DNA of 25,711 nucleotides, from the IMG/VR virus record IMGVR_UViG_3300028840_002584, positions 1-25,711 of that record; one strand, given 5' to 3'. The position numbers and the translations under genes were made by a program. The notes below the pieces were generated by a model. It did not search any database. It was not told the DNA's origin and saw only the letters and a program-made list of their open reading frames with translations. How positions within the stretch are numbered: the first letter of the stretch is position 1; each line of letters begins with the position of its first letter. Positions 2,217-24,344 of this stretch are shown here, in pieces. This DNA comes from a virus.

Positions 2217-4814
2217 ATGAGGTACGACCCGAGGACCGAAGGGGCGCGCTGCGACGAGTGCCCCATGAAGCGATGGCACGGCGCAGAATGGGCTCCGGTC
2301 CCCGGCACCGGCATGGGCACGCTCCTGCTCACGGACGCCCCCGGCCCCAGGGACAAGCGCCATCTCTTCGCAGGCGAAGACGGCACGGAACTGAACGACG
2401 GCTTGAACGCCGCTGGGATTTCGCGCGCGAACTGCCGAACCGACGCAGTGATCGCGTGCAGGCTCCCGAAGGCGATGAAAGGCAAGTGGGACCTGATCGC
2501 GGCGAAGCTCCGCAAGGAGAAGAAGCAGACCGGCGTTGCGCCGCCGCATCCTGCGGAATGCTGCGCTCCGCGTCTTCAGCCGTCCCTGGACGCCGCGCAG
2601 CACATCGTCGCGCTGGGCGGTCCCGCCGCGTCCCGAGTCCTGGGCGGCAAGCCGTCGATCATGGGCATCCGAGGCACGCCGATCACGCTGGACGATGGCC
2701 GCAAGGTCTTCCCTACCCTGAGCCCCGGTGTCGTGCGCGCTGCGCGCCGCTGGCGCAAGGTCTTCGCCGCCGACCTCTCACGCGCGCGGCGCTTCTTTGA
2801 GGACCGCTTGCTCTGGTCCGCGCCGCGCATCCAGTACACCCCGCGCTTCTATGAGGTGGTGGAGTTTTTCTCGCATCCGTCCCGGTGGTGGTCCTACGAC
2901 GTGGAGACGGACGCGCGCGACCCGCTGCAAGCGAATCTCCGCTGCATCGCGATCAGCCGAGACGCAACCCCGGCGGAAGCGGACCAGGGGTATCCCGATG
3001 CCTGCATCGTCATTCCGTTCCGCTCGCTGGAATTGGAAGGGGAGCACCCGCTGTACGACGCCGAGGAGTACCAGTTGATCGTGGACTACCTGCGGCGCGT
3101 CCTCACCGATGGGCGGCTGTGGTGCGGCCACAACGCGGGCTGGTACGACCGTCTCGTCATTGAGGAGCAGTTGGGCGTGACCCCGAAGCCGCTGCTGGAC
3201 ACCATCCTCCTCGCGCGGCTGGTAGCCAGCGAGTTGCCGAAGTCCCTGGGCGTCGTCGGATCCATGTACATCGACCTCCCGAGCGCATGGAAGCAGGACA
3301 ACGAGGGCCTGAAGCTGTCCGTCGCAGCGCGGACGGACATGGAGTTGTGGGAATACTGCGCGCTCGACACCGCCGTGACGCACCGCTGCGCCGAGAAGTT
3401 GGTCGCGGGTACGCGGGAACGCGCACAAGCCGTGACGTGCGCGGCCTACCCGTCGATGACACTCGTGGAGTTGGATCACAAGATTCAGGACTTCTGCGCG
3501 GGGCTCACGCGCACGGGCATGTACATCGACCGGGAAGCGCAGCGGGTCATGGAGGCAGACCTCACGCAGCGCGTCGATGATGCGCGGCTCCTGATCGACC
3601 AGCGGTCCCCCATTGGGGCGATGAACCCAGCCTCCGTGTATCAGGTGCGCGACGTGCTGTACTCGTCCAAGGGCTTTGGGCTCGACCCCGTCGAGTTCAC
3701 GGACGCGGGCGACCCAAGCACGAACGACGCCTCGATCCGCGCGTACCTCATGCGCTCCGGCCTCGACCCTGCGGCCCGGTCCTACTTGCTGGCGCTCCGT
3801 ACCTTCCGCAAGGCGCACAAGCTCCTCACCGGGTTCGTGCGGCCTCTCAAGCTCCGCTCCGAGCACCCCGACGTGGGGGTGCTGGACGACGACGGACGGC
3901 TCCGCGTGGCGTGGTCGGCCCACGTCCCCGTGACCGGACGCCTGAGCAGTTCGCAGCCCATGAACGTCCAGAACTGGCCGAAGGAGCTACGCAAGCTCGT
4001 GATCCCCGCGCCGGGGAACATCTTGGTGGGCGCGGACTACGACCAGTTGGAGGGCCGCATCGGCGCGGCGCGCTGGGGCCTCAAGCGGTACTTGGAGGCA
4101 TACGCAACGCCGGGAATCGACCCGCACCAGATCACGATGGAATTCTGCTTCGGGCAGCGCATTTGGAGCCTGCCGGGTGCGCCCAAGGAGCGGTACAAGA
4201 AGAAGGGCGACGGCTGGGAAATCAGCGGGAAGTTCAACGAACTGCGCCAGCTAGCGAAGTCCTACTACTACGCAAAGCAGTATTCATCGGGCGATGAGAC
4301 GGTCCACGGGCTGCTCCAAAAGGTGGAGGACACAGACCCGGATACCGGCGAGCCCATCTTCCCGAACGCGGGGCTGAAGGTCGAAGAGGTCGCGGCCATG
4401 AGTCGCAAATTCCTCGCCGCGTGCCCCGAATTGGAGCGCGGCTGGAAGCGGGAGAAGGCGTACTACGACCGCTACGGGTGCAACGTCGAGCCCCTGACCG
4501 GACGGCGTCGAGACTTCCTCGATGGCTTCGACCTTCCCGAAGTCGTGAACTTCCCAGTGCAGGCGTCTGGCGCTGCGCTTATGAACATCGGCACCGTGCG
4601 CCTGATCGACGCTGGGTGGTCCTGCAACTACACGGGACCGGGCACCGGGCCCATCCAGCAGGGGCACGATGCTCTCGTGGTCGAAGTGCCGGAGGCACAC
4701 GCGGAGGACGCGCGGCGCGCTTTGGAATGGGCCATGACGCAGGAGCATCGCCGGATCTACGACGTGGTCTTCAGTGCAGAGGCAGAGATTGGACGCCGCT
4801 GGTACGACGTGTGA
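2217..4814 (+). CDS. Uracil-DNA-glycosylase-like / family A DNA polymerase fusion
   Basis: An 865-residue replicative polymerase. Residues 1-~190 resemble family 4 (Fe-S) uracil-DNA glycosylase, as in the SPO1 polymerase: cysteines C12/C15, C81 and C115/116 match the cluster pattern and an APG motif is present at 41-43. The usual HPS motif reads SPG (169-171), so glycosylase activity is doubtful. Residues ~220-390 are the 3'-5' exonuclease with D228/E230, D311 and Y380-x3-D384. Residues ~420-865 are PolA: TGRLSS at 573, motif A DYDQLEGR with D607, motif B R677-x3-K681, motif C HDA with D818. Motif C normally reads HDE. The ATG at 2217 follows GGAGAG; an upstream in-frame ATG at 2148 is rejected because it would translate the terminator. 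Confidence 0.93.
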   Translation: MRYDPRTEGARCDECPMKRWHGAEWAPVPGTGMGTLLLTDAPGPRDKRHLFAGEDGTELNDGLNAAGISRANCRTDAVIACRLPKAMKGKWDLIAAKLRKEKKQTGVAPPHPAECCAPRLQPSLDAAQHIVALGGPAASRVLGGKPSIMGIRGTPITLDDGRKVFPTLSPGVVRAARRWRKVFAADLSRARRFFEDRLLWSAPRIQYTPRFYEVVEFFSHPSRWWSYDVETDARDPLQANLRCIAISRDATPAEADQGYPDACIVIPFRSLELEGEHPLYDAEEYQLIVDYLRRVLTDGRLWCGHNAGWYDRLVIEEQLGVTPKPLLDTILLARLVASELPKSLGVVGSMYIDLPSAWKQDNEGLKLSVAARTDMELWEYCALDTAVTHRCAEKLVAGTRERAQAVTCAAYPSMTLVELDHKIQDFCAGLTRTGMYIDREAQRVMEADLTQRVDDARLLIDQRSPIGAMNPASVYQVRDVLYSSKGFGLDPVEFTDAGDPSTNDASIRAYLMRSGLDPAARSYLLALRTFRKAHKLLTGFVRPLKLRSEHPDVGVLDDDGRLRVAWSAHVPVTGRLSSSQPMNVQNWPKELRKLVIPAPGNILVGADYDQLEGRIGAARWGLKRYLEAYATPGIDPHQITMEFCFGQRIWSLPGAPKERYKKKGDGWEISGKFNELRQLAKSYYYAKQYSSGDETVHGLLQKVEDTDPDTGEPIFPNAGLKVEEVAAMSRKFLAACPELERGWKREKAYYDRYGCNVEPLTGRRRDFLDGFDLPEVVNFPVQASGAALMNIGTVRLIDAGWSCNYTGPGTGPIQQGHDALVVEVPEAHAEDARRALEWAMTQEHRRIYDVVFSAEAEIGRRWYDV

Positions 4815-4816
4815 AC

Positions 4817-4845
4817 TTGCTATTACGCAATCGCAAGGTTAATGT
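4817..4845 (+). promoter_or_regulatory. Promoter placing a leaderless start at the HTH gene
   Basis: TTGCTA (4817-4822), a 17-nt spacer and TAATGT (4840-4845). The -10 box ends 6 nt before the ATG at 4852, so transcription would begin at or next to the start codon. No ribosome site is visible in front of that ATG. Confidence 0.55.
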
Positions 4846-4851
4846 CCGGCT

Positions 4852-5094
4852 ATGTCGATGCCTCAAATACGCAGCCTGGATTCTATTGACCTGGGGAGCA
4901 GCGAAGCCGCCACCCTCGTCGCCACTGTGCTGCGCCGCAGCCCCACGCTTGAAGCGGGGATGAAAGCCATCGCAGACGAAACCCTCGTCTCCGAATGGAC
5001 TGTCTACCGCTGGCTGAGAGGAAAGCACGTTCCGCGTGCAAGACAGCTTGCGCGTCTGCGCTCCCTGGCCGATCCTGCCGAGGATGCACGCTGA
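4852..5094 (+). CDS. Small helix-turn-helix protein
   Basis: An 80-residue protein. Residues about 34-65 (AGMKAIADETLVSEWTVYRW and the following GKHVPR turn) look like a helix-turn-helix: a helix, a short turn and a recognition helix with W49-T-V-Y-R-W, then a proline-arginine turn as in Cro/CI-type proteins. It would act as a small transcription regulator. The ATG at 4852 is preceded by a -10 box at the leaderless distance; an ATG two codons further in is possible. Its end overlaps the next gene by 11 nt. It is one of three candidate regulators of the promoters in this window, the others being the RHH proteins at 14773 and 19367. Family assignment is by pattern only. Confidence 0.6.
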   Translation: MSMPQIRSLDSIDLGSSEAATLVATVLRRSPTLEAGMKAIADETLVSEWTVYRWLRGKHVPRARQLARLRSLADPAEDAR

Positions 5095-9010: not shown

Positions 9011-9442
9011 ATGCCGAAGTTCAGCAGCAGTTCCCGCAGCCGATTGGAGACGTGTGACCCACGCCTTCAGGCCCTCTTCACCGCCGTCGTGGAAACGCAC
9101 GACTGCACGATCCTTGAGGGCTTGCGGACGCTAGAGCGCCAGCAGGAGCTTTACCGGCAGGGCAAGTCGAAGCTCGACGGCGTGAACAAGAAGAGCAAGC
9201 ACCAGAGCGACGACGGCGTCAGCCGTGCCGTGGACGTGGCCCCGTATCCGATCGACTGGAATACGCACCAGCCCGCCGTCGCAAAGCGGTGGCTCGACTT
9301 CGCGCGTGCCGTGCTCGCGGAGGCCGAGCGCCAGGGAACCTCTGTGCGCTGGGGCGGCGACTGGGACGGCGACTGGGACCGTGTCTCCGACCCGACCCTC
9401 GACCAGTCCTTCAACGACTGGCCGCACTGGGAACTGCGCTAG
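9011..9442 (+). CDS. Endolysin, M15 family L-Ala-D-Glu/D-Ala peptidase
   Basis: A 143-residue single-domain peptidase like T5 endolysin (137 residues). Metal and catalytic residues are in place: SKHQ with H64, AVDVAP with D75, and DWPHWEL with catalytic D136 and zinc ligand H139. M15C enzymes cut peptide stems in peptidoglycan, usually between L-Ala and D-Glu, to lyse the host at the end of infection. No signal peptide or wall-binding domain is present, so it needs a holin to reach the wall. The gene has its own -10 box. It overlaps the convergent gene at 9439 by 4 nt. Confidence 0.92.
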   Translation: MPKFSSSSRSRLETCDPRLQALFTAVVETHDCTILEGLRTLERQQELYRQGKSKLDGVNKKSKHQSDDGVSRAVDVAPYPIDWNTHQPAVAKRWLDFARAVLAEAERQGTSVRWGGDWDGDWDRVSDPTLDQSFNDWPHWELR

Positions 9443-11529: not shown

Positions 11530-11790
11530 TCAGCAGCGCCGCAGGTATGCGATACCGAGGATCGTGATCAGGCCGAGGCCCATGAGGCCCGTCAGTTGCG
11601 CCTGATCTGCGATGGACTCAGTCGTCGTCGTCAGCCGGTCGATGCGAGCCGTCAGTTGCGGCGTCGTGTCGATCGTGACCTTGCCGAGCGGCGGGCCTGT
11701 CCGCTGCTGTTGCTGCTGCTGCTGCTGCGACCCTTCCCCCACCGGGACGCGAAAGTCGAAGACGCCAAAGCTGGGAATGTGGTAGCGCAT
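11530..11790 (-). CDS. Small polyglutamine membrane protein
   Basis: An 86-residue protein with eight consecutive glutamines (codons at 11704-11727, CAG with one CAA), a Thr/Asp-rich helical middle, and one C-terminal membrane segment (GLMGLGLITILGIAY) ending in basic RRC. The topology is a tail-anchored or inner-membrane protein. It could be a holin-like or structural protein; there is no recognised domain. The CAG tract is a simple repeat that may vary in length. Confidence 0.6.
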   Translation of the reverse strand: MRYHIPSFGVFDFRVPVGEGSQQQQQQQQRTGPPLGKVTIDTTPQLTARIDRLTTTTESIADQAQLTGLMGLGLITILGIAYLRRC

Positions 11791-11799
11791 GGCGGGATG

Positions 11800-12723
11800 C
11801 TACGCCCGCTTTCGCAAATCTGCTAGCAAACTCGTGACGGGGCCGAGGTCCGAAAGCCGCATGTAGGGCTCGTCGCTTGCGACCACGTTGGCGTACACAG
11901 CCTTGTGGAGATCGGTGAATCCGCTGGAGAATTCCAGCCGCGTCCCCTTGCCGCTCCAACAACTGTCGGTAGACGTGTCGGGGAAATGCAGCGTCAGTTC
12001 CCGGTGGCTCTGCTGCGTCGGATACGGCAGGTACTTGCGGTCGATGGACAAGAGGAAGTCGATCACCGTGTCCTTGAAGACGACCACGCCCATGGCCTCA
12101 CGAGTCGTCAAGGAGCCGATTGAGACGGACTGATGCTCACCGAAAATCCAGCACAGCGCATCGAGCATGTGGATTCCGATGTTCGCGAGGATGCCGCCGC
12201 TCCGACTCGCATCGCCCTTCCATGACCAGTCGTACCACTGGCCCCGAGGCGTGACATAGGTGAGCGTGCCCATGCTGGGGGGCTGGGGGGCCGTGAGGAT
12301 CGACTCACGGAAGGTCTGTAGCTTTTCCGAAAGCCGCAGTTGGTGGACCGGGTAGATGCGCTTCCCGGTGTCTTTTTCCAGCGCGAGCAGCAAATCGAGA
12401 TTGCGCGGGTTGACGACGACGGGCTTTTCGCATATCGCGTGCGCGTCATTCCGTAGAGCCAACCGGCAGTGCGCGTCGTGCAGGTAGTTCGGGGAGCACA
12501 CCGAGACGTAATCCACGCCCTCTCCGTCGCGCCGCAAGCGGTCCAAGTGCCGCTCAAAGCGTTCCACCTCCGTGAAGAAGTGGCAGTCGGGGAAGTACCG
12601 ATCGATCACGCCGATGGAATCGTGCGGGTCCACGATCGCGACCAGATCCCCGCCGATCGCCTTGATGGCTTCCATGTGCCGGGGGGCGACGTAGCCACCC
12701 GCCCCGATCAGAGCAAAACGCAT
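11800..12723 (-). CDS. WlbA/WbpB-like UDP-GlcNAc(A) 3-dehydrogenase (Gfo/Idh/MocA family)
   Basis: A 307-residue NAD-dependent oxidoreductase. The Rossmann motif GAGGYVAPRHM starts at residue 8; the EKP lysine is K100; the NIGIH histidine is H185; TPRGQWYDWSWKGD (158-171) and SSGFTDLH near the end match WlbA of Bordetella and WbpB of Pseudomonas almost motif for motif. Those enzymes oxidise C3 of UDP-N-acetylglucosaminuronate, the first step toward 2,3-diacetamido-uronic acids of LPS O-antigen. No partner aminotransferase or acetyltransferase of that pathway is nearby, so the phage product may feed a host pathway. The ATG in TGATG is chosen; it is coupled to the glycosyltransferase stop. Confidence 0.88.
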   Translation of the reverse strand: MRFALIGAGGYVAPRHMEAIKAIGGDLVAIVDPHDSIGVIDRYFPDCHFFTEVERFERHLDRLRRDGEGVDYVSVCSPNYLHDAHCRLALRNDAHAICEKPVVVNPRNLDLLLALEKDTGKRIYPVHQLRLSEKLQTFRESILTAPQPPSMGTLTYVTPRGQWYDWSWKGDASRSGGILANIGIHMLDALCWIFGEHQSVSIGSLTTREAMGVVVFKDTVIDFLLSIDRKYLPYPTQQSHRELTLHFPDTSTDSCWSGKGTRLEFSSGFTDLHKAVYANVVASDEPYMRLSDLGPVTSLLADLRKRA

Positions 12724-14780
12724 CACCGCACTCCTTGAATGTGCTCATACAGGCTGCGCCAGCGCGCGGTCACGCTTGCTGCGCCGTGGGTCCGCTGGGC
12801 CCACTCGATCTGAGGACGCTGCGTGTCTGCATCGCCCCAAAGGCCCCGAGCAGCGGGGTTCGCCACGTCGAGACGGATGGCCTCTGCCAGCTCGTGCTCG
12901 TCCCGCACGCGCCTGACCGGAGCATCCGGGTGGATGGACTTCGACCATGCGTTCAAGTCGGAGTAGACCGTGTGGCCCAAGGCGATCGACTCTGCGCCGC
13001 TCATGCCGTAGATCCCAACCGCGAACTGATCGAACGTCGCGTGGCACGTCCGCTTGATCTCCATGCACTCCTCGTTCGACTTGCCTTCAATCACGACGGC
13101 TTCGACGGGGACGCCGTCAGCCTTCAACGCATCCACCACGTCGAGGAACACTTCCGTCTTCTTGAACCGGCGGTTCGTCGTCGGGTGGCAGATCCGGTAC
13201 ACCCCCTTGCCGCGCCATGCCGGAGCGCGCCGAGCGAAGACGTGGTCGGGGACAATCAGGGGCATGTGGTACGGGAGCCAAGACCGCTCCAACATCGTCC
13301 AGTCCCAGGCCGAGACTCCCATGATGCCGGTGTGCTTGTGCCACGCCATGTACTCGTGAGCGTGCTGCCGCAGCGGTGAACCGAGGTACTGCACGAGGCA
13401 GTTGTGCGGCGTCAGAATCTCGCGCCAGTCCAGCTTGCCCACGCTGACCGGGTGCCGAACGAAGTGGAAAAACCAGTCACGGCTCGACACCAGTTCGTAC
13501 AGCGGTTCCACGTCGTCCAAGTCACTGAGGACCAGCGCATCGTCGGGCAGCGGGAAGTCGATGTAGTCCTGCTGGAGCACGATGCAGGGAGCGCCCATCG
13601 CCTGCGCGAGGTAGCCCGCTTGACCGGCTGCGTTCGTGTCCGTCACGAACAGGACCGGGCGCGTCTTCGCCGTTTCAGGGGCGGGGACGTGCCTGCGGGG
13701 CGTCCACCCCTCAAGGTCGTGGGACTGCGTCTCTAGCCAGTGGAACCCAGCCGCAGCCGCCATTTCATCCTTGGCTTCCTGCGGGATTACCAGCGCGCCC
13801 CCGTGCTCAAGGCCAGAGAGGATGCGCGGCGCAGTCACAAGGGAGCCGTGCGTCCCAGGGGCTCCGCGCATCGCGCCGAGCGTGTGCCCGAGCAAGCCGT
13901 AGCCTGCGACCGCGACGACTTGCGCCCAAAGGTCGGGGGCTGTGGAACCAGTGGAGTCCGCAAGCTGGGCCCCTTCTGCGAGGACGCCGAGTGCCATCGT
14001 GCTGTTCCCCTGAAGGAGCGCAGCCTGCGCCACGATCTGCCACGGGCGGGCGTGCAGTGTCGGGACGCCTGCGCGATGGAGTTGGATGGATCGCATCGCC
14101 GTGCGGACGGCGTCGTCGTGTCGGTTCAAGGCTTGGTACGCGCGGCTTTCGACGTACAGCCGGTGCTGATCGTCGGGATCCATGAGGGCCGCGATCCGCA
14201 GCGTGCGCCGTGCGTTGCGGGTGGGGTCCGCGTCGTAGCCGATGTGACGGATCCAGGCGTCTGGATAGCTGGTCGCGTTGAGGTGCGTAACCTGCGCCGC
14301 CATGTGGACCCGGTGCTTGTACCGAACGCCCGATGACACCCGCCACAAGCGAGGCTGAAGCGTGTCCTCCCGCTTCTTCCCGATGTGCGACCGGACGGGG
14401 AGCCCAATCACGTCGATGCGGGGGTCGGGGTCGAGCAGCGCATCACGGAACGCCTTGCGGTCGCCGTCGATGCGGTCGTCGCCGTCGATGATCAGGATCC
14501 AGGGATCGCCCCACTCCGACGCAACCGCGATCTCTTCAATCGCAGTCAGTCCGACGTTTCGACTACGTGCGAAGTCGTCGTCCCAGGGGTCTTCGATGAT
14601 GTGGACCGGGACCGATAGCTCCTGCCCCAACGTGCGAGCCACGTTGATCGTCTCGTCCGTCGATCCCGTGTCCACGATCACCCATGCGTCTACGACGCCA
14701 CGAGCCGACGCGAACAGGCCCGGTAGATTCTCGGCCTCGTTCTTAACGATCATCGCGCCGACGACGTGAACTTCAGACAC
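12723..14780 (-). CDS. Bimodular glycosyltransferase (GT2 + TPR-like linker + GT-B-like)
   Basis: A 685-residue protein. Residues 1-~200 are a GT2/GT-A domain: MIVKNEAENL, VDTGSTDET, DDFARSRN and the metal-binding DGDD at 99-102. Residues ~200-340 are helical repeats of TPR type (VESRAYQALNRHDDAVR and following). Residues ~370-660 resemble a GT-B enzyme: VLFVTDTNAAGQAGYLAQ, VYRICHPTTNRRFKKTEVF, and a C-terminal GMSGAESIALGHTVYSDL that parallels the donor-binding EA..G motif of GT4. GTs of this kind modify surface polysaccharides, virion proteins or DNA bases. The GTG start overlaps the RHH gene by 8 nt after GGAGGAG. The neighbour WlbA-like enzyme may make or alter its NDP-sugar donor (inference). 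Confidence 0.85.
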   Translation of the reverse strand: MSEVHVVGAMIVKNEAENLPGLFASARGVVDAWVIVDTGSTDETINVARTLGQELSVPVHIIEDPWDDDFARSRNVGLTAIEEIAVASEWGDPWILIIDGDDRIDGDRKAFRDALLDPDPRIDVIGLPVRSHIGKKREDTLQPRLWRVSSGVRYKHRVHMAAQVTHLNATSYPDAWIRHIGYDADPTRNARRTLRIAALMDPDDQHRLYVESRAYQALNRHDDAVRTAMRSIQLHRAGVPTLHARPWQIVAQAALLQGNSTMALGVLAEGAQLADSTGSTAPDLWAQVVAVAGYGLLGHTLGAMRGAPGTHGSLVTAPRILSGLEHGGALVIPQEAKDEMAAAAGFHWLETQSHDLEGWTPRRHVPAPETAKTRPVLFVTDTNAAGQAGYLAQAMGAPCIVLQQDYIDFPLPDDALVLSDLDDVEPLYELVSSRDWFFHFVRHPVSVGKLDWREILTPHNCLVQYLGSPLRQHAHEYMAWHKHTGIMGVSAWDWTMLERSWLPYHMPLIVPDHVFARRAPAWRGKGVYRICHPTTNRRFKKTEVFLDVVDALKADGVPVEAVVIEGKSNEECMEIKRTCHATFDQFAVGIYGMSGAESIALGHTVYSDLNAWSKSIHPDAPVRRVRDEHELAEAIRLDVANPAARGLWGDADTQRPQIEWAQRTHGAASVTARWRSLYEHIQGVR

Positions 14781-15132: not shown

Positions 15133-16104
15133 ATGACGAACGAAATCGTAGAAAAGCCAGTGAATGCGCTTCCGGCTCCGCTGATCGAAGCTGCGAACAA
15201 AGCGCGCGAATACGCAGAGGCAAGTCTTAGCGATGCAACGCGCCGTCGTTACGCGAGTGCATGGCGCGGATTCGTAGAATGGTGCCTTGAGCACGATGCG
15301 AATCCACTACCCGCAGAGCCGGAGTTAGTGGCGGCTTACTTTGCCGCAGCAGAAATGCGGCCACAGACACTCGGCGTTGTTTCAGCCGCGATCCGCCTCG
15401 CGCACACATCGCAGGGTCACGACGACCCCACCAAGTCGGAGGCAGTGCGCCTCACGCTGCGCGGCATCCGGCGAACGCATGGTGTCGCCGCGCACGGGCG
15501 CAGGGCTCTACGCCTCGCGGAGCTACAGCGCATCCTCTCGGAATGCGGCGACGACTTCGCGGGACAGCGCGATGCGGCGCTCCTGCTGGTCGGGTTCGTC
15601 GGCGGGATGCGTCGGGCCGAACTTGCGGCGATGGACTGGTCGCATCTGCGCGAGGAGCCGGAAGGGCTCGTCATCACGATCCCCCGGAGCAAGACAGACC
15701 AAGAGGGGGAGGGGCGCACCGTCGCGCTCCCCTACGGGCGCAGCTTGCTGACGTGCCCCGTCCGAACCCTGCACCGCTGGCGGGCGCACGTCGGGGGCAT
15801 CATGCGGACGCGCCTCGTCCCCGATCCGGGGGCCGTGTGGTTGTCGCGGCGTTCCTTGCGCCGCCTACCGGCATCGCGCATCGCCACCGTGCTGCAAGAC
15901 CGCGCCGAGGCCGCAGGCATAGACACGAAACTGCTCGCTGCCCACTCGCTCCGGGTAGGCTTCGCCACGGAAGCAGCACTGGCCGGAGCATCGGAGCGCG
16001 CCATCGCGCGGCAGACGGGGCATCGGGACGTAAAGACGCTTCGGAAGTACATTCGGGACGGCACCGTTTTCAGTGACAATGCCGCCGCAAAGCTGGACCT
16101 CTAG
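15133..16104 (+). CDS. Tyrosine recombinase (integrase)
   Basis: A 323-residue site-specific recombinase with every catalytic residue: R160 (GGMRRAEL), K187 (SKTD), H271 and R274 (HSLR), H297 (GH) and nucleophile Y306 (LRKYIR). The N-terminal ~110 residues form the SAM-like core-binding domain (SLSDATRRRYASAW...). There is no AP2-type arm-binding extension, and the size is close to simple integrases rather than lambda Int. It would insert or excise the phage genome, or resolve multimers. It sits divergent to the RHH gene and 8 nt before the next gene. I could not locate an attP core by eye. Probably leaderless (TAGACT 6 nt before the ATG). Confidence 0.93.
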   Translation: MTNEIVEKPVNALPAPLIEAANKAREYAEASLSDATRRRYASAWRGFVEWCLEHDANPLPAEPELVAAYFAAAEMRPQTLGVVSAAIRLAHTSQGHDDPTKSEAVRLTLRGIRRTHGVAAHGRRALRLAELQRILSECGDDFAGQRDAALLLVGFVGGMRRAELAAMDWSHLREEPEGLVITIPRSKTDQEGEGRTVALPYGRSLLTCPVRTLHRWRAHVGGIMRTRLVPDPGAVWLSRRSLRRLPASRIATVLQDRAEAAGIDTKLLAAHSLRVGFATEAALAGASERAIARQTGHRDVKTLRKYIRDGTVFSDNAAAKLDL

Positions 16105-16586: not shown

Positions 16587-17312
16587 GTGAAGGTCATTGA
16601 GACGCTCCAGCAGGTAGCCGACCGGCTACAGGTCGGGATGATGATTGGTTCAGTACCCGGCGACGGCTCTGGACACATCGAGATCATCCACAGCAATCCG
16701 GTTGCCTCGATGATCTTCGGGTACCCGAGTCCCGCCGCACTCAAGGGCGCGGACGTGCGGACCCTAATGCCTCAGACCATCGCGCGGGACCATAAGGACA
16801 ACGTCGCGGCATACGTGAAGCGCGCGAACGGCGGCGGGATCCGCCAGTCCTCAGTGATGGGCCAGTGGCGGTCGCTTGAGGCCGTGCGTATGGACGGCTC
16901 CCGCATCCCGGTCGCCGTCAACGTCGCGGACGTGAGGAACACCGAGGAGCGGTACTTCGTCGCCATCGTGCGCGACCGCTCCGAGGCGGTCGCTCGCGAG
17001 GCCGAGCTATCCGAGGCCGTCGAAGAAGCTCAGCGGTTGGCCGAGGAGGCCGAGCAGGCGCGGGCAGCAGCCGAGGATGGGCTCCTGCGCCAGAAGCGTC
17101 TAAGCGGCCAGATCTCGCTCCTCAAGCAGATATACACAGGCACCATCGGGCTCGTCGTCCTGCTCGGCGTGCTGACCGTGGCAAGCTGGGCGACCGGGGC
17201 GAAGGACCCGGACTCCCTCGCCATGTTTGAGCGCGTGCTACTCGTGCTCACCGGAATGCTGGGCTCCGCGCTCGCCGCCGTGTTCGATACGCGGCGATCA
17301 GACGGCGACTGA
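16587..17312 (+). CDS. FixL-like PAS protein with holin-like membrane hairpin
   Basis: A 241-residue protein in three parts. Residues ~15-130 are a PAS domain in which FGY, LMP, a histidine at H69 (ARDHKDN), an arginine at R95 (GQWR), RMDGSRIPV and IVRD follow FixL; H69 and R95 align with the haem-ligand His200 and the oxygen-sensing Arg220 of Bradyrhizobium FixL. Residues ~131-180 are a charged coiled coil. Residues 182-203 and 213-233 are two membrane helices joined by a short loop, with a charged C-terminus, like class II holins. No kinase or other output domain exists, so the membrane hairpin is the output. The start is GTG at 16587. Haem binding is inferred, not shown. Confidence 0.75.
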   Translation: MKVIETLQQVADRLQVGMMIGSVPGDGSGHIEIIHSNPVASMIFGYPSPAALKGADVRTLMPQTIARDHKDNVAAYVKRANGGGIRQSSVMGQWRSLEAVRMDGSRIPVAVNVADVRNTEERYFVAIVRDRSEAVAREAELSEAVEEAQRLAEEAEQARAAAEDGLLRQKRLSGQISLLKQIYTGTIGLVVLLGVLTVASWATGAKDPDSLAMFERVLLVLTGMLGSALAAVFDTRRSDGD

Positions 17313-18520: not shown

Positions 18521-18988
18521 TCACCACCACAGGACTCCGCAGGCGATGCGCTCCCCGCCGCCACCCAAGGGCTTCGGCTGGTCGGAGTAGTTGTCGCCCC
18601 CGGCATGCACGATCAGTACGCGACCCGCGAAGTCTCGCGCGCGTGGGCGCGGGGCGTACAGGAAGGTGTCCACCGTTCCGGTCGCGGGTACGACAACCCG
18701 GGGGAGGTCGCCCAAGTGCCCCCGCCGATACGGACCCAAGTGCCTGCCCGTCCGCTCCGGGTCGTAGTGCCCGCCAGCGCCGCCCGCAGCGATGATCTTG
18801 CCGTCCTTGTTGGGTCCCGGGGCGCAGGAGCACCCCTCGTGGACGTGGAGCCCATGAGGGCCAGGGGCCACGGTCCACAGCCGCAGGCGAATCAACAGCG
18901 CCGCCGTCGTGTCCGTCATGGTCACTTCGCCCACGCGCTCGTGGATACCGGAGGGGCTAACCCGGAAAAGCCCAGCGCCGATTTTCAT
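18521..18988 (-). CDS. sodC: Cu/Zn superoxide dismutase
   Basis: A 155-residue SodC. The copper ligands H48 and H50 (GLHVHE), bridging H74 (GGHYDP), zinc-site H83, H91 and D94 (GHLGDLP) and copper ligand H128 (VHAGGDNYSDQP) are all present, as is LGGGGERIACG with the disulfide cysteine C150 (partner C53 or C55). It converts superoxide to oxygen and peroxide. Bacterial SodC normally has a signal peptide; the ATG at 18988, coupled to the upstream stop (CAATGA), leads directly into the fold, so this form would remain in the cytoplasm or the virion. The start could be earlier in frame, but the residues there do not look like a signal peptide either. Confidence 0.95.
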   Translation of the reverse strand: MKIGAGLFRVSPSGIHERVGEVTMTDTTAALLIRLRLWTVAPGPHGLHVHEGCSCAPGPNKDGKIIAAGGAGGHYDPERTGRHLGPYRRGHLGDLPRVVVPATGTVDTFLYAPRPRARDFAGRVLIVHAGGDNYSDQPKPLGGGGERIACGVLWW

Positions 18989-19389
18989 TGAAGCACCTTC
19001 AATCCTAAGGCGAGTGCGGCCTGTCCAAGAGCCACGAAGACGTGCCAAATCGTATGCCACCGGCCATAGGCATCGGCATCCAACTCACCTTTCTTCTTCG
19101 CGATGAGCCCCGCGCCCAAACACAGCAGCGCCACAGCCCACACGATGGGGTGAACCTCCGACGCGGCGGCGTAACCCACCGTGAGGCCCAGGGTCATGTA
19201 GGCGGCGTACACGTCGAAGGGACGCACGACTTCCCACTCGTGGGAATAGTGGTACGTGATGCTCGCGCCAGCACAGAGCAGCATCGCCAGCGTGGGCATA
19301 GCCGCGCCAGCGATGGCGTAGAGCACTGCGTTGCCCACGAAGAGCCCGTTGGAGAAGAGGACCGGGTCAGTCCACGCGCGGGTCGTCAT
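18985..19389 (-). CDS. CREST-like (ceramidase/hemolysin III-type) membrane protein
   Basis: A 134-residue polytopic membrane protein with about four to five helices. It shows the three marks of CREST-superfamily metal hydrolases: S43-x3-H47 (SITYH) at the end of a helix, D59 (RPFDVYAAY) and H112-x3-H116 (WHTIWH) in the last helix. Members include alkaline ceramidases, PAQR receptors and hemolysin III proteins, which bind zinc in the membrane and hydrolyse lipid amides. This protein is shorter than seven-helix members, so it may be a minimal or diverged form. It overlaps the RHH gene by 23 nt and the SodC gene by 4 nt. The lipid substrate is unknown. Confidence 0.65.
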   Translation of the reverse strand: MTTRAWTDPVLFSNGLFVGNAVLYAIAGAAMPTLAMLLCAGASITYHYSHEWEVVRPFDVYAAYMTLGLTVGYAAASEVHPIVWAVALLCLGAGLIAKKKGELDADAYGRWHTIWHVFVALGQAALALGLKVLQ

Positions 19390-19552: not shown

Positions 19553-19845
19553 TAGTGCACCTCCGTGTCTTCGGGGAGGTCGGACTTGACGGTCCAGAGG
19601 TCGAAGGCGTCGAAGCTGTTGTCCATCCAGATGATGGCGGGGCTGTAGCTGTCCTTCATCTTGCAAAGCCACATGGCTCGCCATTCCACATCGTTGTGCG
19701 GAATGACCATTTGACAGACGTGTACGCCTTCGGGGTCCAGCCGCTTCGCGAAGTCAGGGACCGGCCCACGGTTGCGGCCCTTGCTGTCCTGCATGAGCCT
19801 GCGAAATCCAGGGGTGCCGGTGATGGTCACGACTCTCTTGTCCAT
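19552..19845 (-). CDS. Hypothetical 97-residue protein
   Basis: First gene of the leftward operon. It begins MDKRVVTITGTPGFRR with GGAGG 5 nt upstream of the ATG and is soluble, with many aromatics in the C-terminal half (WRAMWLCKMKDSYSPAIIW). I recognise no domain. The C-terminus is acidic. Because it is nearest the operator-like promoter, it would be the first product expressed together with the RHH protein. Confidence 0.6.
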   Translation of the reverse strand: MDKRVVTITGTPGFRRLMQDSKGRNRGPVPDFAKRLDPEGVHVCQMVIPHNDVEWRAMWLCKMKDSYSPAIIWMDNSFDAFDLWTVKSDLPEDTEVH

Positions 19846-19875
19846 TGGGTCCTCCTTGTAGGGGTCAACAACCCC

Positions 19876-19904
19876 AACTTAGCTATGGCTATGGCTAATG
19901 TCAA
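19876..19904 (-). promoter_or_regulatory. Leftward promoter for the SodC/CREST operon
   Basis: Read leftwards: TTGACA (19904-19899), 17-nt spacer, TAAGTT (19881-19876), with CATAGCTAAG around the -10. A leader follows that includes a small hairpin (GGGGT/ACCCC, 19861-19875) and then AGGAGG. The TAGCTAAG core matches three other promoters in the window. A degenerate second arm (GGCTAATG) is visible. Confidence 0.75.
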
Positions 19905-19935
19905 ACAAGGTTCTACCTATAAGTCGCAAGCCCCG

Positions 19936-19941
19936 TATGCT
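19936..19941 (+). promoter_or_regulatory. -10 box at leaderless distance from the gene at 19948
   Basis: TATGCT ends 6 nt before the ATG at 19948 and no ribosome site is present. TATAAG at 19918-19923 is an alternative -10. No strong -35 is found. The region is divergent with the 19876-19904 promoter. Confidence 0.4.
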
Positions 19942-19947
19942 TCGCGC

Positions 19948-20163
19948 ATGGAAAGCAAGCGATACCGGGTGTTTTGGGCCGTCTACGTTCTTGGCCTTCT
20001 CTCTGTCCTCGCGCTCACGGGCGCAGCGACTCAGGGCAACGTCGTCGGAGAGGTCGCGGGCACCGTGGGGATGATCTTCACGGGCATCGCGGGGCTGGGC
20101 GCGACGTATGTCGGCGGCGAGTCCTACCGGGCGAGCGGCGCAACCCGGGCCGACGATGAGTGA
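19948..20163 (+). CDS. Two-helix membrane protein, holin-like
   Basis: A 71-residue protein with two membrane helices (VFWAVYVLGLLSVLALTG and GTVGMIFTGIAGLGATYVGG), a basic N-terminus (MESKRYR) and a charged C-terminus, the size and layout of class II holins. The helix pair resembles the C-terminal hairpin of the PAS protein at 16587. It probably begins leaderless and overlaps the next gene by 8 nt. Holin function is plausible but not proven; it could also be another small inner-membrane protein. Confidence 0.6.
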   Translation: MESKRYRVFWAVYVLGLLSVLALTGAATQGNVVGEVAGTVGMIFTGIAGLGATYVGGESYRASGATRADDE

Positions 20164-20775: not shown

Positions 20776-21064
20776 AGTCGAGAGCACGGTGCTCGTGCTC
20801 CATACGCGCGAAGACCGCTTCCGGTAGATAACGCGCGAAGACCGCGTCCTCCCACTCCGCATGCTCCATGAGCGCCCGCCTCGGCCAGTCGCCGTGGCGG
20901 CGTCGGTACGCACGGAAGGCTTCATGCTCCTGATGGATGCGCCCTCGCGCAGCCAGGGGAAGAAAGCCCAGGACGTAGGACTCTTCCCAGGACAAGTGAC
21001 AGCCCGCGCAGCAATCCGCACGTTCGTCGGGCCGCATGGTGAAGGGGCCTGCGGGATCTTTCAT
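20741..21064 (-). CDS. His-rich protein, possibly hemerythrin-like
   Basis: A 107-residue protein. A CCAGC cluster near the N-terminus is followed by helices carrying spaced histidines and glutamates: RIHQEHEAF, a H in RRRHGDW, MEHAEWEDAVF and RMEHEHRALD. The H..EH...H..WE....EH order resembles the helical bundle of hemerythrin-type di-iron or metal-binding proteins, but the exact ligand spacing is not certain. It starts on ATGA overlap with the spanin-like gene. If metal-binding is real, it adds to the redox theme of the window. Confidence 0.5.
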   Translation of the reverse strand: MKDPAGPFTMRPDERADCCAGCHLSWEESYVLGFLPLAARGRIHQEHEAFRAYRRRHGDWPRRALMEHAEWEDAVFARYLPEAVFARMEHEHRALDFKIRNGLPLDD

Positions 21065-21510
21065 TGCGCCGCACTCGCTCCGATGGCGATGCCGATACCC
21101 CCGCCACAGATGCCGAAACCGATCGCCAGCCCAACCCCAAAGGCTTCCCACCGCTGGCGACGTGCCTGATCCCGTTCCCACAGCAACCGCTCGTAGTGAG
21201 CATCGGCCCAGGTGCGGTCACGCTCGCGCCCTTCGACAGACAGTGTCAGGAGTCGCCGGAGCGCATCGCCCTGATCGTCCACGTCGTAGAGGTACTGGAC
21301 TTCGCTCGGCGGCAACAGGAGGCCCGTGCAGGATGCCGTGTCGCCGGGTCGAAGCGCCGAGACGTTCGCGCACGCCTCGGCGTCGTCAGGGGCCTTGGGC
21401 GGGGGCTCGGGGGCCGTGTAGTCAGGGAGCGGGGACCAGGGGATCGTCGTCGGCGTCGTCGCGCAGCCCGCGAGCAGCAGACTACAGAGGATCGTAGTCA
21501 GGCGGGTCAT
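21061..21510 (-). CDS. Lipoprotein with C-terminal membrane helix (unimolecular-spanin-like)
   Basis: A 149-residue protein starting MTRLTTILCSLLLAGC: a lipoprotein signal with lipobox LLAGC and acylated C16. A proline-rich stretch, a GDTASCTGLLLPP motif and a charged helix (residues ~85-120) follow, then a C-terminal membrane helix (about 122-146, rich in Gly). Lipid anchor at one end and membrane helix at the other is the plan of u-spanins such as T1 gp11 (131 residues), which fuse inner and outer membranes at the last step of lysis. The RBS lies in a GAGGAC-repeat of the upstream gene. An ordinary lipoprotein is the alternative. Confidence 0.6.
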   Translation of the reverse strand: MTRLTTILCSLLLAGCATTPTTIPWSPLPDYTAPEPPPKAPDDAEACANVSALRPGDTASCTGLLLPPSEVQYLYDVDDQGDALRRLLTLSVEGRERDRTWADAHYERLLWERDQARRQRWEAFGVGLAIGFGICGGGIGIAIGASAAQ

Positions 21511-22009
21511 CGGCGTACTCGTCCTCGTCCTCGTCCTCATCTTCGTACTGCCCCGGCTCGTCCAGCCCTTGCGCCGTGAGCATGAGGTCGGGGTGCGTCA
21601 CGACCAGAGCCCCGCTCGGCAGCACGAACACGCGCGTCTCTGCGGGAAGCTGATGGTAGTAGAAGCGTTCCACGTCCGGCATCGTGTAGCCCAGCGTCGG
21701 GCGTGAGTCTTCGCCCTCTGCGAATTCCCAGGCGAGCCAGTCGGCGCTCCCCAACTCGACGGCGGGACCCGTGAGGTTCAAGGCCGTGACTTCGCACGCG
21801 CCATCCGTCCATTCGGAACAGTTCTCATAGAGGTCAGAGAGCGCGCGTGAGGGTGATACTGGGTCGCCCGTCTTCGCGCCCTCTCCGAATAGCTCCTCGG
21901 CCATGGCATTCAGAAGGTCATCCACAAAGGCATCGCGCGCCTCTGCGTCCTTGAACGTCACGCCCTTGGATTCTCGGATCGCCAGCAGGAGAGCATCGCG
22001 CAGCATCAT
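21482..22009 (-). CDS. Hypothetical 175-residue protein with acidic tail
   Basis: Unrecognised soluble protein: helical N-terminus (DALLLAIRESKGVTFKDAEARD), mixed middle, and a C-terminal run EDEDEDEDEYADD. The GAG-GAC codons of this tail also provide the Shine-Dalgarno-like sequence for the spanin-like gene. Two adjacent ATGs (22009 and 22006) follow GGAG; the second is better spaced. It overlaps the upstream gene by 4 nt. Confidence 0.6.
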   Translation of the reverse strand: MMLRDALLLAIRESKGVTFKDAEARDAFVDDLLNAMAEELFGEGAKTGDPVSPSRALSDLYENCSEWTDGACEVTALNLTGPAVELGSADWLAWEFAEGEDSRPTLGYTMPDVERFYYHQLPAETRVFVLPSGALVVTHPDLMLTAQGLDEPGQYEDEDEDEDEYADDPPDYDPL

Positions 22010-22362
22010 CGACTCCGTCGCCGCGCGTTCGCGCGCGCCACGAGACTATCAACGTCGGGGGGCTCACGACGTTCTTCCTCCGGCACCGCAGCGGCTTCCT
22101 GCGCGTCAGCCACAGCCTCGGCCTCCTGCGCCGCCGCTGCGGCCTCCTGCGCCTCGTCAGGGGGCTCCGGGGGCGGCTCCCGCCTCCCCACGTCCTCACG
22201 GATGGCGAAGCGGTCTAGGGCCCGCATGAGCGCGCCGACGCCGAGAGCGGCGAGAGTGGCGAGAGCCCACGCGCGGAAACGCGGAACCGCCGCTGCGACG
22301 ATGATCGCAGCGACGGCTCCGGCGAGCAGGACTAGAAGGATGGGGTCAACCGGAGTACTCAT
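22006..22362 (-). CDS. Two-helix membrane protein with Ala/Glu-rich coiled coil
   Basis: A 118-residue protein starting inside the VWA gene (17-nt overlap). Two membrane helices (ILLVLLAGAVAAIIVAAAV and WALATLAALGVGALMRAL) are followed by a long soluble tail rich in Ala, Glu and Pro (EAAAAAQEAEAVADAQEAA), probably coiled coil, ending in ARANARRRSR. It lies two genes upstream of the spanin-like lipoprotein and could be a holin or membrane scaffold, but there is no family match. Confidence 0.55.
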   Translation of the reverse strand: MSTPVDPILLVLLAGAVAAIIVAAAVPRFRAWALATLAALGVGALMRALDRFAIREDVGRREPPPEPPDEAQEAAAAAQEAEAVADAQEAAAVPEEERREPPDVDSLVARANARRRSR

Positions 22363-23572
22363 CGAGGTCCACCACGATGCACTCCTCGTGCGGCACGTCG
22401 TAACGGTCGGCCAGGGCGTACATCTGATCAATGCAGCCCTGCGTGGGCTTCTTGCCCCCGCCCGCCGGTACGCAGACGAAGATCAGGTTGTCGAGGGTTG
22501 TGTCCTCGGGCCAGTCCCCAAAGTCGGACCCGAACTCAAAGTCACTGATGATGGCGGTCGTCGCAGGCGCGGGTGATACCTGCTCCTCCATCGCCGTCAG
22601 GCCGAGTCCGACCAGCGTGCCGCCGCCGCCCATGAACGATGCTTCCACGTCCTCACGAGAGAAGCACTGCCGCACGGTGTTGACCGCTGCATCGACAGCA
22701 ATCACGTCCACACGCTTGATGTTGTTGGCCTCGACCAGGGACGCGATCTCGGTGGCCGTGATCGCGAGGGCCATGTTGCTCACGGACCCCGATGTGTCCA
22801 CGATGCAACCGATCGTGAACTCTCGTCCCCTGTAGACAGGGAGGATGGCCGCGCGGCGCATCCCCACGGTCTGACGCATCGAGGAGGTGATGCGTGCGGG
22901 GCGCTTGTAGGTCTGCTCCTGCCGCATCTGCGTGAGCAATTCCGCGAAGCGGCTGGACCTCAGACGCTCCTGCCAGTTGATGATGGCCGTGCCGTACTCC
23001 TCAATCGCACGGCGGAAGTTGCCGGGAGTGAAGCCACGAGAAGCAGACGGGTTCTCGTCCATCTCCTTCTGGATCTCCTTCATCTCCTCACGCGCCTCGT
23101 CAATCTCCCCCGGCGTGGGGTCCTCGTCGGGATCGAGGAACCCATTTTCAATAGCCTCCTCGCGAGCCCTTTCGGCCTTCCTCTGGTCGCCGCCCGCGCC
23201 CGCACCGCACTCGCCGCCGAAGCCGCCCGCAGCCTCTGGGTCTGCGCCGCCACCGGGCTGCGGCTGGCCTTGGCCCTCACCGGGCTGACCTTCTCCGGGC
23301 TGACCGGGCTGTCCAGGCTGGGGCTGACCGGGCTGGGGCTGACCCTCTCCAGGCTGCCCAGGCTGGCCCTCGCCGTCGCCCTCGTCGTCGCCGTCCCCTT
23401 CTCCGGGCTCGCCGTCTCCGTCGCCGTCGTCGTCTCCGGGCTCACCGCCCTCCGGGCTTTCCTGGCCGTCGTCGCCTTCGTCGTCGCCCCCCGGGCCTTC
23501 CTGGCCTTCTTCTTCTTCGCCGTCGCCGGTCCAGGGGTCGAGGTCGGTGTTTTCCGCGCTGAAAGTCGCCAT
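22346..23572 (-). CDS. VWA-like protein (C-terminal half of a DUF2201-type module)
   Basis: A 408-residue protein. Residues 1-~130 are acidic, Gly/Pro/Gln-rich and repetitive (GQPGEGQPQPGQ-type). The C-terminal VWA-like domain has a full MIDAS: D259-T-S261-G-S263, T319 (GGGGT) and D344 (ISDFEFG). This matches the VWA-like region of DUF2201 proteins (RavA/MoxR-associated), whose N-terminal HExxH half is here a separate upstream gene. Such VWA proteins act with MoxR-type AAA ATPases in remodelling complexes. GGAGG precedes the ATG by 5 nt and the gene has its own promoter with a dyad. Confidence 0.8.
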   Translation of the reverse strand: MATFSAENTDLDPWTGDGEEEEGQEGPGGDDEGDDGQESPEGGEPGDDDGDGDGEPGEGDGDDEGDGEGQPGQPGEGQPQPGQPQPGQPGQPGEGQPGEGQGQPQPGGGADPEAAGGFGGECGAGAGGDQRKAERAREEAIENGFLDPDEDPTPGEIDEAREEMKEIQKEMDENPSASRGFTPGNFRRAIEEYGTAIINWQERLRSSRFAELLTQMRQEQTYKRPARITSSMRQTVGMRRAAILPVYRGREFTIGCIVDTSGSVSNMALAITATEIASLVEANNIKRVDVIAVDAAVNTVRQCFSREDVEASFMGGGGTLVGLGLTAMEEQVSPAPATTAIISDFEFGSDFGDWPEDTTLDNLIFVCVPAGGGKKPTQGCIDQMYALADRYDVPHEECIVVDLDEYSG

Positions 23573-23642: not shown

Positions 23643-24344
23643 TCAAATTGGTTCGTATTCCACGATCTGACGCCCCTGCACGTCGGGCCGCGTGGCCTTG
23701 ACGACGACGCACCGCTTGCCCTTGTTGGGCCCACTGCGCGGCTTCACCTCATCTCCAACTTCGTAGACCCGGGGCTTGTCGTCCTGTCCCGGTGGGGGAG
23801 GAGGCGGCGGGGCACCGCCCTCATTCTGGCGCTGCTCGATCGCGTAGTAGACCTCTGCCGTTGCTGCGGGACCCTCAGAGGGCGCACCGATCTGCTCAGG
23901 GAAGAGAGCCCAACTCGGCATATCGAGAGGAATGACGCTGCCATCCGGCTTCGTGTACGTGAGGTTCCGAAGGCCCTTGTTGATCTCGCGGTCGCCCGCG
24001 CAATTCCACAGAGAGCCGCCAGCAGCGGCCATCGCGTTCCGGTTACCGCGACGTTCACCGTGGTCGAGGATGATGTGCCCCACCTCGTGCATCACGCCGA
24101 CGATCAGTTCTCTGGGCGTGAGCTGTAGGTCCGTCCGACCCATGACGAAATCAGCGTTGTAGTAGAAGACCATCGTTGTGTGATCTACGGCGAGCGTCTT
24201 GTATACCGACGTTTCGATGTAGCGGAAGAGGTCGAGCATCGGCCCAACCGTTGGGCACACGCCGTCCTTGACCAAAAGAATCGCCGCTTGAAGCCGGTTC
24301 CAGGCTTCCTCGTCCTTGTAACCACCGTTGTAGACCTTGGGCAT
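23643..24344 (-). CDS. HExxH metallopeptidase-like protein (N-terminal half of a DUF2201-type module)
   Basis: A 233-residue protein. The zinc motif HEVGH is at 86-90 with a third histidine in ILDHGERRGN (H95), and WNCAGDREIN at ~113-122 is the paired AxDxxIN motif of putative DUF2201_N metallopeptidases. After a proline run (PPPPPPP) the tail carries a small KOW-like segment (GDEVKPRSGPNKGKR). In cellular relatives this domain is fused to a VWA domain; here it precedes the VWA gene with 70 nt between. Peptidase activity is predicted from motif only. GGAGG precedes the ATG. Confidence 0.8.
   Translation of the reverse strand: MPKVYNGGYKDEEAWNRLQAAILLVKDGVCPTVGPMLDLFRYIETSVYKTLAVDHTTMVFYYNADFVMGRTDLQLTPRELIVGVMHEVGHIILDHGERRGNRNAMAAAGGSLWNCAGDREINKGLRNLTYTKPDGSVIPLDMPSWALFPEQIGAPSEGPAATAEVYYAIEQRQNEGGAPPPPPPPGQDDKPRVYEVGDEVKPRSGPNKGKRCVVVKATRPDVQGRQIVEYEPI

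Follow-up and report, generated by a model that had tools for sequence, protein, structure and literature searches.

A phage PAS protein of the FixL/DosP subfamily ending in a predicted two-helix membrane anchor

The gene, its domains and the predicted hairpin

The stretch of phage DNA analyzed here (the window; 25,711 nucleotides, positions 1 to 25,711 of IMG/VR record IMGVR_UViG_3300028840_002584) encodes a protein in which a FixL/DosP-type PAS domain is joined through a long helix to the membrane (Table 1). The frame is intact, and its GC content at the three codon positions (0.70/0.45/0.83) is coding-like. The protein consists of the PAS domain (residues ~17–131), a helix covering residues 132–202 that runs as a predicted coiled coil into the first transmembrane helix (TM1), and a second transmembrane helix (TM2) followed by six residues. 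Searches of Pfam, NCBIfam and PHROGs found no output domain, in agreement with the original prediction, which had described a protein without enzymatic output; two weak Pfam matches, HDPD and Pox_RNA_Pol_19 (E 0.03–0.09), were set aside. AlphaFold2, given an alignment of 74 sequences spanning the PAS part, returned a model with a mean pLDDT of 90.9 that contains the PAS strands, helix 132–202 and helix 208–239; the pTM of 0.65 makes the relative placing of these parts less certain than each part alone.

A coiled coil and two C-terminal membrane helices had likewise been read from the sequence at the outset, and both were borne out. The heptad a and d positions of the coiled coil are 80% hydrophobic (shuffle p = 0.0046) and fall within helix 132–202, while hydrophobic segments at ~184–202 and ~217–235 coincide with AlphaFold2 helices. 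The N-in/C-in hairpin topology is predicted from hydropathy and charge only (four K/R and zero D/E before TM1; RR after TM2). The hairpin has no family match, neither to a Pfam or PHROG holin nor to any lysis PHROG. Neither the whole protein nor its C-terminal half alone had a tblastn match up to E = 10 in 50,697 phages, pattern scans of IMG/VR yielded zero relatives of the protein or of the hairpin, and 0/500 pattern matches from a GTDB genome scan with the hairpin were confirmed. Against the window's other hairpins and those of contig L112, its similarity was not significant (8–36% of shuffles scored equally well). A single match of the C-terminal half among 398 Pseudomonadota genomes (E = 9.8e-4) was taken as chance; it lies in a 350-aa frame without a PAS domain, which we judged to be a GspK-like secretion protein. 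The complete layout was not seen elsewhere in the viral, phage, plasmid and genome collections searched; the original prediction had known of no characterised phage protein like it. Sequence, profile and predicted fold together support the combination of a FixL/DosP-type PAS and a membrane hairpin, without an enzyme, as a real layout. Sensors of this kind are already known; new is an output-less, predicted membrane-anchored PAS sensor bearing a C-terminal hairpin not seen elsewhere.

Table 1 Features of the PAS gene, lysis-related genes of the window and PAS-like genes of Cellulophaga phages
Feature	Position	Strand	Basis or remark
Gene for PAS–coiled coil–membrane hairpin protein	16587..17312	+	241 aa, GTG start
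PAS domain, FixL/DosP subfamily, residues 17–131	16635..16979	+	TIGR00229, FixL PDB match, fold match
H69 codon; aligns with BjFixL H200 (proximal haem ligand) and DosP H77	16791..16793	+	alignment
R95 codon; aligns with BjFixL R220 / DosP R97 (distal arginine)	16869..16871	+	alignment
Predicted coiled-coil signalling helix, residues 132–183, continuous with TM1	16980..17135	+	AF2 pLDDT >90; heptads
Predicted TM1, residues 184–202	17136..17192	+	hydropathy, AF2 helix
Loop between TM helices, residues 203–216, predicted outside	17193..17234	+	positive-inside count
Predicted TM2, residues 217–235, small-residue ladder G223/S227/A231 + G226/A230	17235..17291	+	hydropathy, AF2
M15-type endolysin of the window phage	9011..9442	+	phrog_465 E=7e-40; PF13539
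Rival holin candidate (small, single C-terminal TM)	11530..11790	-	homologue of G007 protein L022:1497-1799
phi38:2 gp11, TM + PAS-like	L117:2911-3546		directly before M15 endolysin
phi18:3 gp090, TM + PAS-like	L116:39102-39620		two genes before endolysin
phi19:1 gp108 (phi19:1/Nekkels), TM + PAS-like	L115:5703-6425		between tail genes and lysozyme

The PAS domain and its putative haem pocket

The PAS region is matched by TIGR00229 above its cut-off (E = 1.3e-9), by PF13426 (PAS_9) slightly below its cut-off of 27 (26.2 bits, E = 1e-5), and by the FixL equivalog model in the PAS part only (E = 1.7e-9). FixL is the best PDB sequence match (E = 6.6e-6); nearly all PDB sequence matches, including all those at E ≤ 0.001, are FixL or DosP, with DosP entries to 0.0016, and no FAD- or FMN-PAS occurs among them. 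Comparison of the predicted structure with FixL and DosP, the check that had been proposed, returned a PAS fold: Foldseek against the PDB placed LOV/PAS kinases, FixL, short LOV proteins and DosP at the top ranks, and the BjFixL haem domain matched with a TM-score of 0.84, normalised by that domain's own length. The protein is not a LOV photosensor, as the adduct-forming cysteine is absent and the 241 residues include zero cysteines. Bacterial PAS relatives are ~25–41% identical to the window protein. The 85 that were inspected (80 genome loci and 5 plasmid loci; four run off their contig) all lie in longer proteins, most with 170–1100 aa after the PAS, and within the PAS relatives compared the phage proteins alone have no long region there.

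H69 and R95 do stand at the FixL positions to which they had been assigned. Their counterparts are numbered H200 and R220 in BjFixL, and H77 and R97 in DosP. The numbering of BjFixL R206, R220, I215, L236 and I238 agrees with PMC10765370, and the DosP numbering is also supported by PMC4263535. The aligned His is found in 73/73 PAS relatives and the aligned Arg in 69/73, a set chosen by similarity to the window protein, whose fractions do not represent PAS domains in general. Both residues are common to the whole subfamily, proteins of unknown cofactor included, and are therefore subfamily markers, necessary but not sufficient for haem.

The haem side of the pocket has changed. At H+1 the window protein has K70 where 65 of the 73 relatives have Asp, at H+3 it has N72 in place of a Tyr (again 65/73), and at H+6 A75 in place of an Arg (57/73). 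The loop before strand G (FG loop) is six residues longer, and the distal hydrophobic positions are retained (V90, V111, V113). The H+3 Tyr is Y80 of DosP, whose ring rotates upon O2 binding (PMC4263535); haem binding by SmFixL persists when its H+6 Arg is varied (PMC10765370). The proposal of haem-based oxygen sensing keeps its His and Arg, but substitutions at three conserved F-helix positions and the longer FG loop make it uncertain. In our judgement, haem binding by this PAS domain is plausible but weakened, its chances falling a little short of even.

Compared with FixL, the oxygen sensor kinase of Rhizobiales, and with PAS-A of EcDosP, the window protein has the same PAS fold and subfamily, the same positions for the proximal His and distal Arg, and a predicted coiled-coil linker; with FixL it would also share membrane association. 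It differs in stopping after the hairpin without a kinase or phosphodiesterase, in the C-terminal location of its membrane helices, and in the pocket changes described above.

Genomic setting, lysis genes and anchored PAS proteins of other phages

Seven related phages (G001–G007), of up to 106 kb, were available for comparison, and no PAS relative was found in them. G001 is a near-exact match to the window but stops at window position 13813, short of the PAS gene. Because the PAS protein is absent from these relatives, its gene looks like an accessory gene. It stands after a tyrosine recombinase (15133–16104) and a small conserved gene, near an accessory module of GNAT, SodC and small ORFs. 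A Cu/Zn superoxide dismutase (18521–19060, minus strand; PF00080 E = 1.3e-25, phrog_1975 E = 4e-44) lies 1.2 kb from the PAS gene with its usual metal-ligand motifs LHVHE, GGHYDP, HLGDLP and VHAGGD readable, which suggests that oxidative stress matters to this phage. Elsewhere in the window, the adjoining frames 22346–23572 and 23643–24344 (minus strand) jointly carry DUF2201 metallopeptidase and VWA-like domains, accompanied in the near-identical contig G001 by an AAA-like ATPase gene at 3330–5033. The region 11800–14780 (minus strand) encodes a Gfo/Idh/MocA oxidoreductase and a glycosyltransferase 2 protein, probable surface-sugar genes that are both kept in G004, G005 and G007. G007 also encodes a 3569-aa protein (L020:769-11478) with helicase/methyltransferase and DarB-like matches.

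The PAS gene lies ~7 kb from the endolysin gene and is not adjacent to it; genes of opposite orientation lie between the two. In G007, the M15 endolysin (L022:825-1478; matched by endolysin PHROGs 2649 and 465) has L022:1497-1799 directly downstream, which encodes a small protein whose single TM is C-terminal. The window homologue of this small protein (Smith-Waterman score 67 versus 23.8 ± 4.1 for shuffles, with 0/1000 as good) is, from this comparison, a better candidate than the PAS protein for the holin of the phage group. Other hairpin proteins of the window are the C-terminal part of 19555–20163, and 22006–22431. The protein at 21061–21540 (minus strand) has a lipoprotein signal, a C-terminal TM and a weak spanin PHROG match (5.6e-5), and shares 48% identity with a G007 protein across 102 residues.

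Alignment-based scans revealed two further FixL-like PAS proteins, both membrane-anchored and output-less: L029:514-1113 (G008) and L112:4842-5441 (G009). They are 42% identical to each other over residues 24–181, TM included, and come from tailed phages whose terminase and portal genes belong to different families. Unlike the window protein, they have one TM, N-terminal to the PAS, and no hairpin, and their haem-side residues are intact (HDGY, that is HD-Y, and the Arg of GxGR). Downstream of the PAS gene in G008 are genes for TM/coiled-coil proteins with a weak resemblance to i-spanins. As far as these alignments indicate, an output-less anchored FixL-like PAS occurs in three phage lineages, which is new here. 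A consensus FixL PAS searched against 50,697 named phage records gave ten records, mostly large or unannotated and perhaps bacterial, as well as the PAS S-box protein of a giant Sinorhizobium phage.

A fold search of viral models added small PAS-like TM proteins of Cellulophaga phages (phrog_10199/phrog_31932, function unknown; Table 1, with UniProt entries assigned to genes by length and phage). They resemble the window protein in combining a TM segment with a PAS-like fold, and in phi18:3 and phi38:2 their genes are near the endolysin. They differ in that the TM is N-terminal, the PAS-like domain is probably outside the membrane, the FixL residues are missing and identity is 9–12%. These proteins may be functionally unrelated to ours and are a lead only.

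Possible functions of the PAS protein

Membrane potential, superinfection and quorum signals are all known to affect the timing of phage lysis. Our preferred reading, which we hold tentatively, is that the PAS protein modulates the timing of membrane lesion or lysis as an antiholin or holin-like accessory, and is not the sole holin. It would be a membrane-tethered, probably dimeric cytoplasmic sensor of the FixL/DosP type with a mechanical output. A change in the PAS pocket, caused by O2, NO or CO at a haem, by its redox state, or failing these by some different small ligand, would produce a coiled-coil twist like that of FixL and LOV kinases. Because the helix is predicted to be unbroken, the twist would pass directly into TM1 and alter packing of the hairpin in the inner membrane, so that the accessory would sense the oxygen or energy state of the cell. 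The predicted anatomy supports a PAS switch joined through a rigid helix to the membrane; the dimer, the ligand, the signal transfer and any link to lysis are inferred. We favour lysis modulation for two reasons: anchored PAS proteins are found repeatedly in phages, some of them in lysis regions, and there is a precedent in VqmA-phage of vibriophage VP882, a phage-encoded PAS sensor governing lysis (PMC8284805). That protein is soluble, acts through an HTH DNA-binding output and has DPO as its ligand. The coupling to lysis that the original prediction drew from the hairpin fares unevenly: the hairpin has no homologue, the endolysin is distant and the phage group has a conserved endolysin-linked TM protein, and the link gained from other phages, whose anchored PAS or PAS-like proteins lie within or close to lysis regions, is circumstantial only.

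Two readings are close rivals of lysis modulation. The protein might be a decoy for host signalling, which we consider somewhat unlikely; the hairpin would then be an Aer-like anchor, and the PAS and coil would pair or compete with host PAS kinases or cyclases and blunt oxygen or stress signalling. FixL-type kinases dimerise through a module of PAS and coiled coil, which the window protein keeps while lacking any catalytic part, and Aer offers a precedent, with an N-terminal cytoplasmic PAS and two TM helices preceding HAMP and signalling domains (PMC6406031). The window protein shares the predicted order of PAS and two-TM anchor, but the Aer PAS binds FAD, the HAMP and chemotaxis signalling domain are absent here, and the identity to the bacterial PAS domains found is low for heterodimerisation. 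Alternatively, the protein could act in superinfection exclusion or otherwise as an early host-takeover membrane protein, with the PAS serving as a ligand-free dimer scaffold. The position beside the recombinase and the accessory module, together with the drifting pocket residues, would suit this role, yet the PAS fold and H69/R95 are kept despite divergence, and we regard it as unlikely.

A less likely reading makes the PAS protein itself the holin, with the PAS domain gating a class II hairpin. Class II holins such as pinholin S21 have two TM helices in an N-in/C-in hairpin. The predicted topology, short loop and small-xxx-small TM2 of the window protein resemble this arrangement, and family searches recognise no other holin in the window. 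The same topology, however, suits an Aer-like anchor equally, as it would any anchor; lysis PHROG and holin sequence matches are absent, a 180-aa cytoplasmic sensor is fused to the hairpin, the gene is apart from the endolysin, the window has the homologue of the endolysin-linked G007 protein, and it has further hairpin proteins. Of the holin-like hairpin first described, only the predicted class II topology is left, and we consider the PAS protein very unlikely to be the holin. A decaying, functionless fragment of a captured host gene, which the single copy and the lack of a close relative in the collections searched could suggest, is improbable given the intact frame, coding-type composition, confident fold, significant heptads and recurrence of this type of layout in other phages.

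We return to lysis modulation for its wider meaning. With an anchored, output-less FixL-like PAS in three phage lineages, these proteins form a testable group and not a one-off. A phage protein in which a haem-type PAS is joined directly to membrane helices would let one protein relay the oxygen or redox state to the membrane. It is conceivable, though quite unlikely, that several phage lineages adopted PAS domains of the FixL oxygen/redox type as switches embedded in the membrane and acting on it directly, so that lysis would be timed to the oxygen or energy state of the host without a kinase or DNA-binding step.
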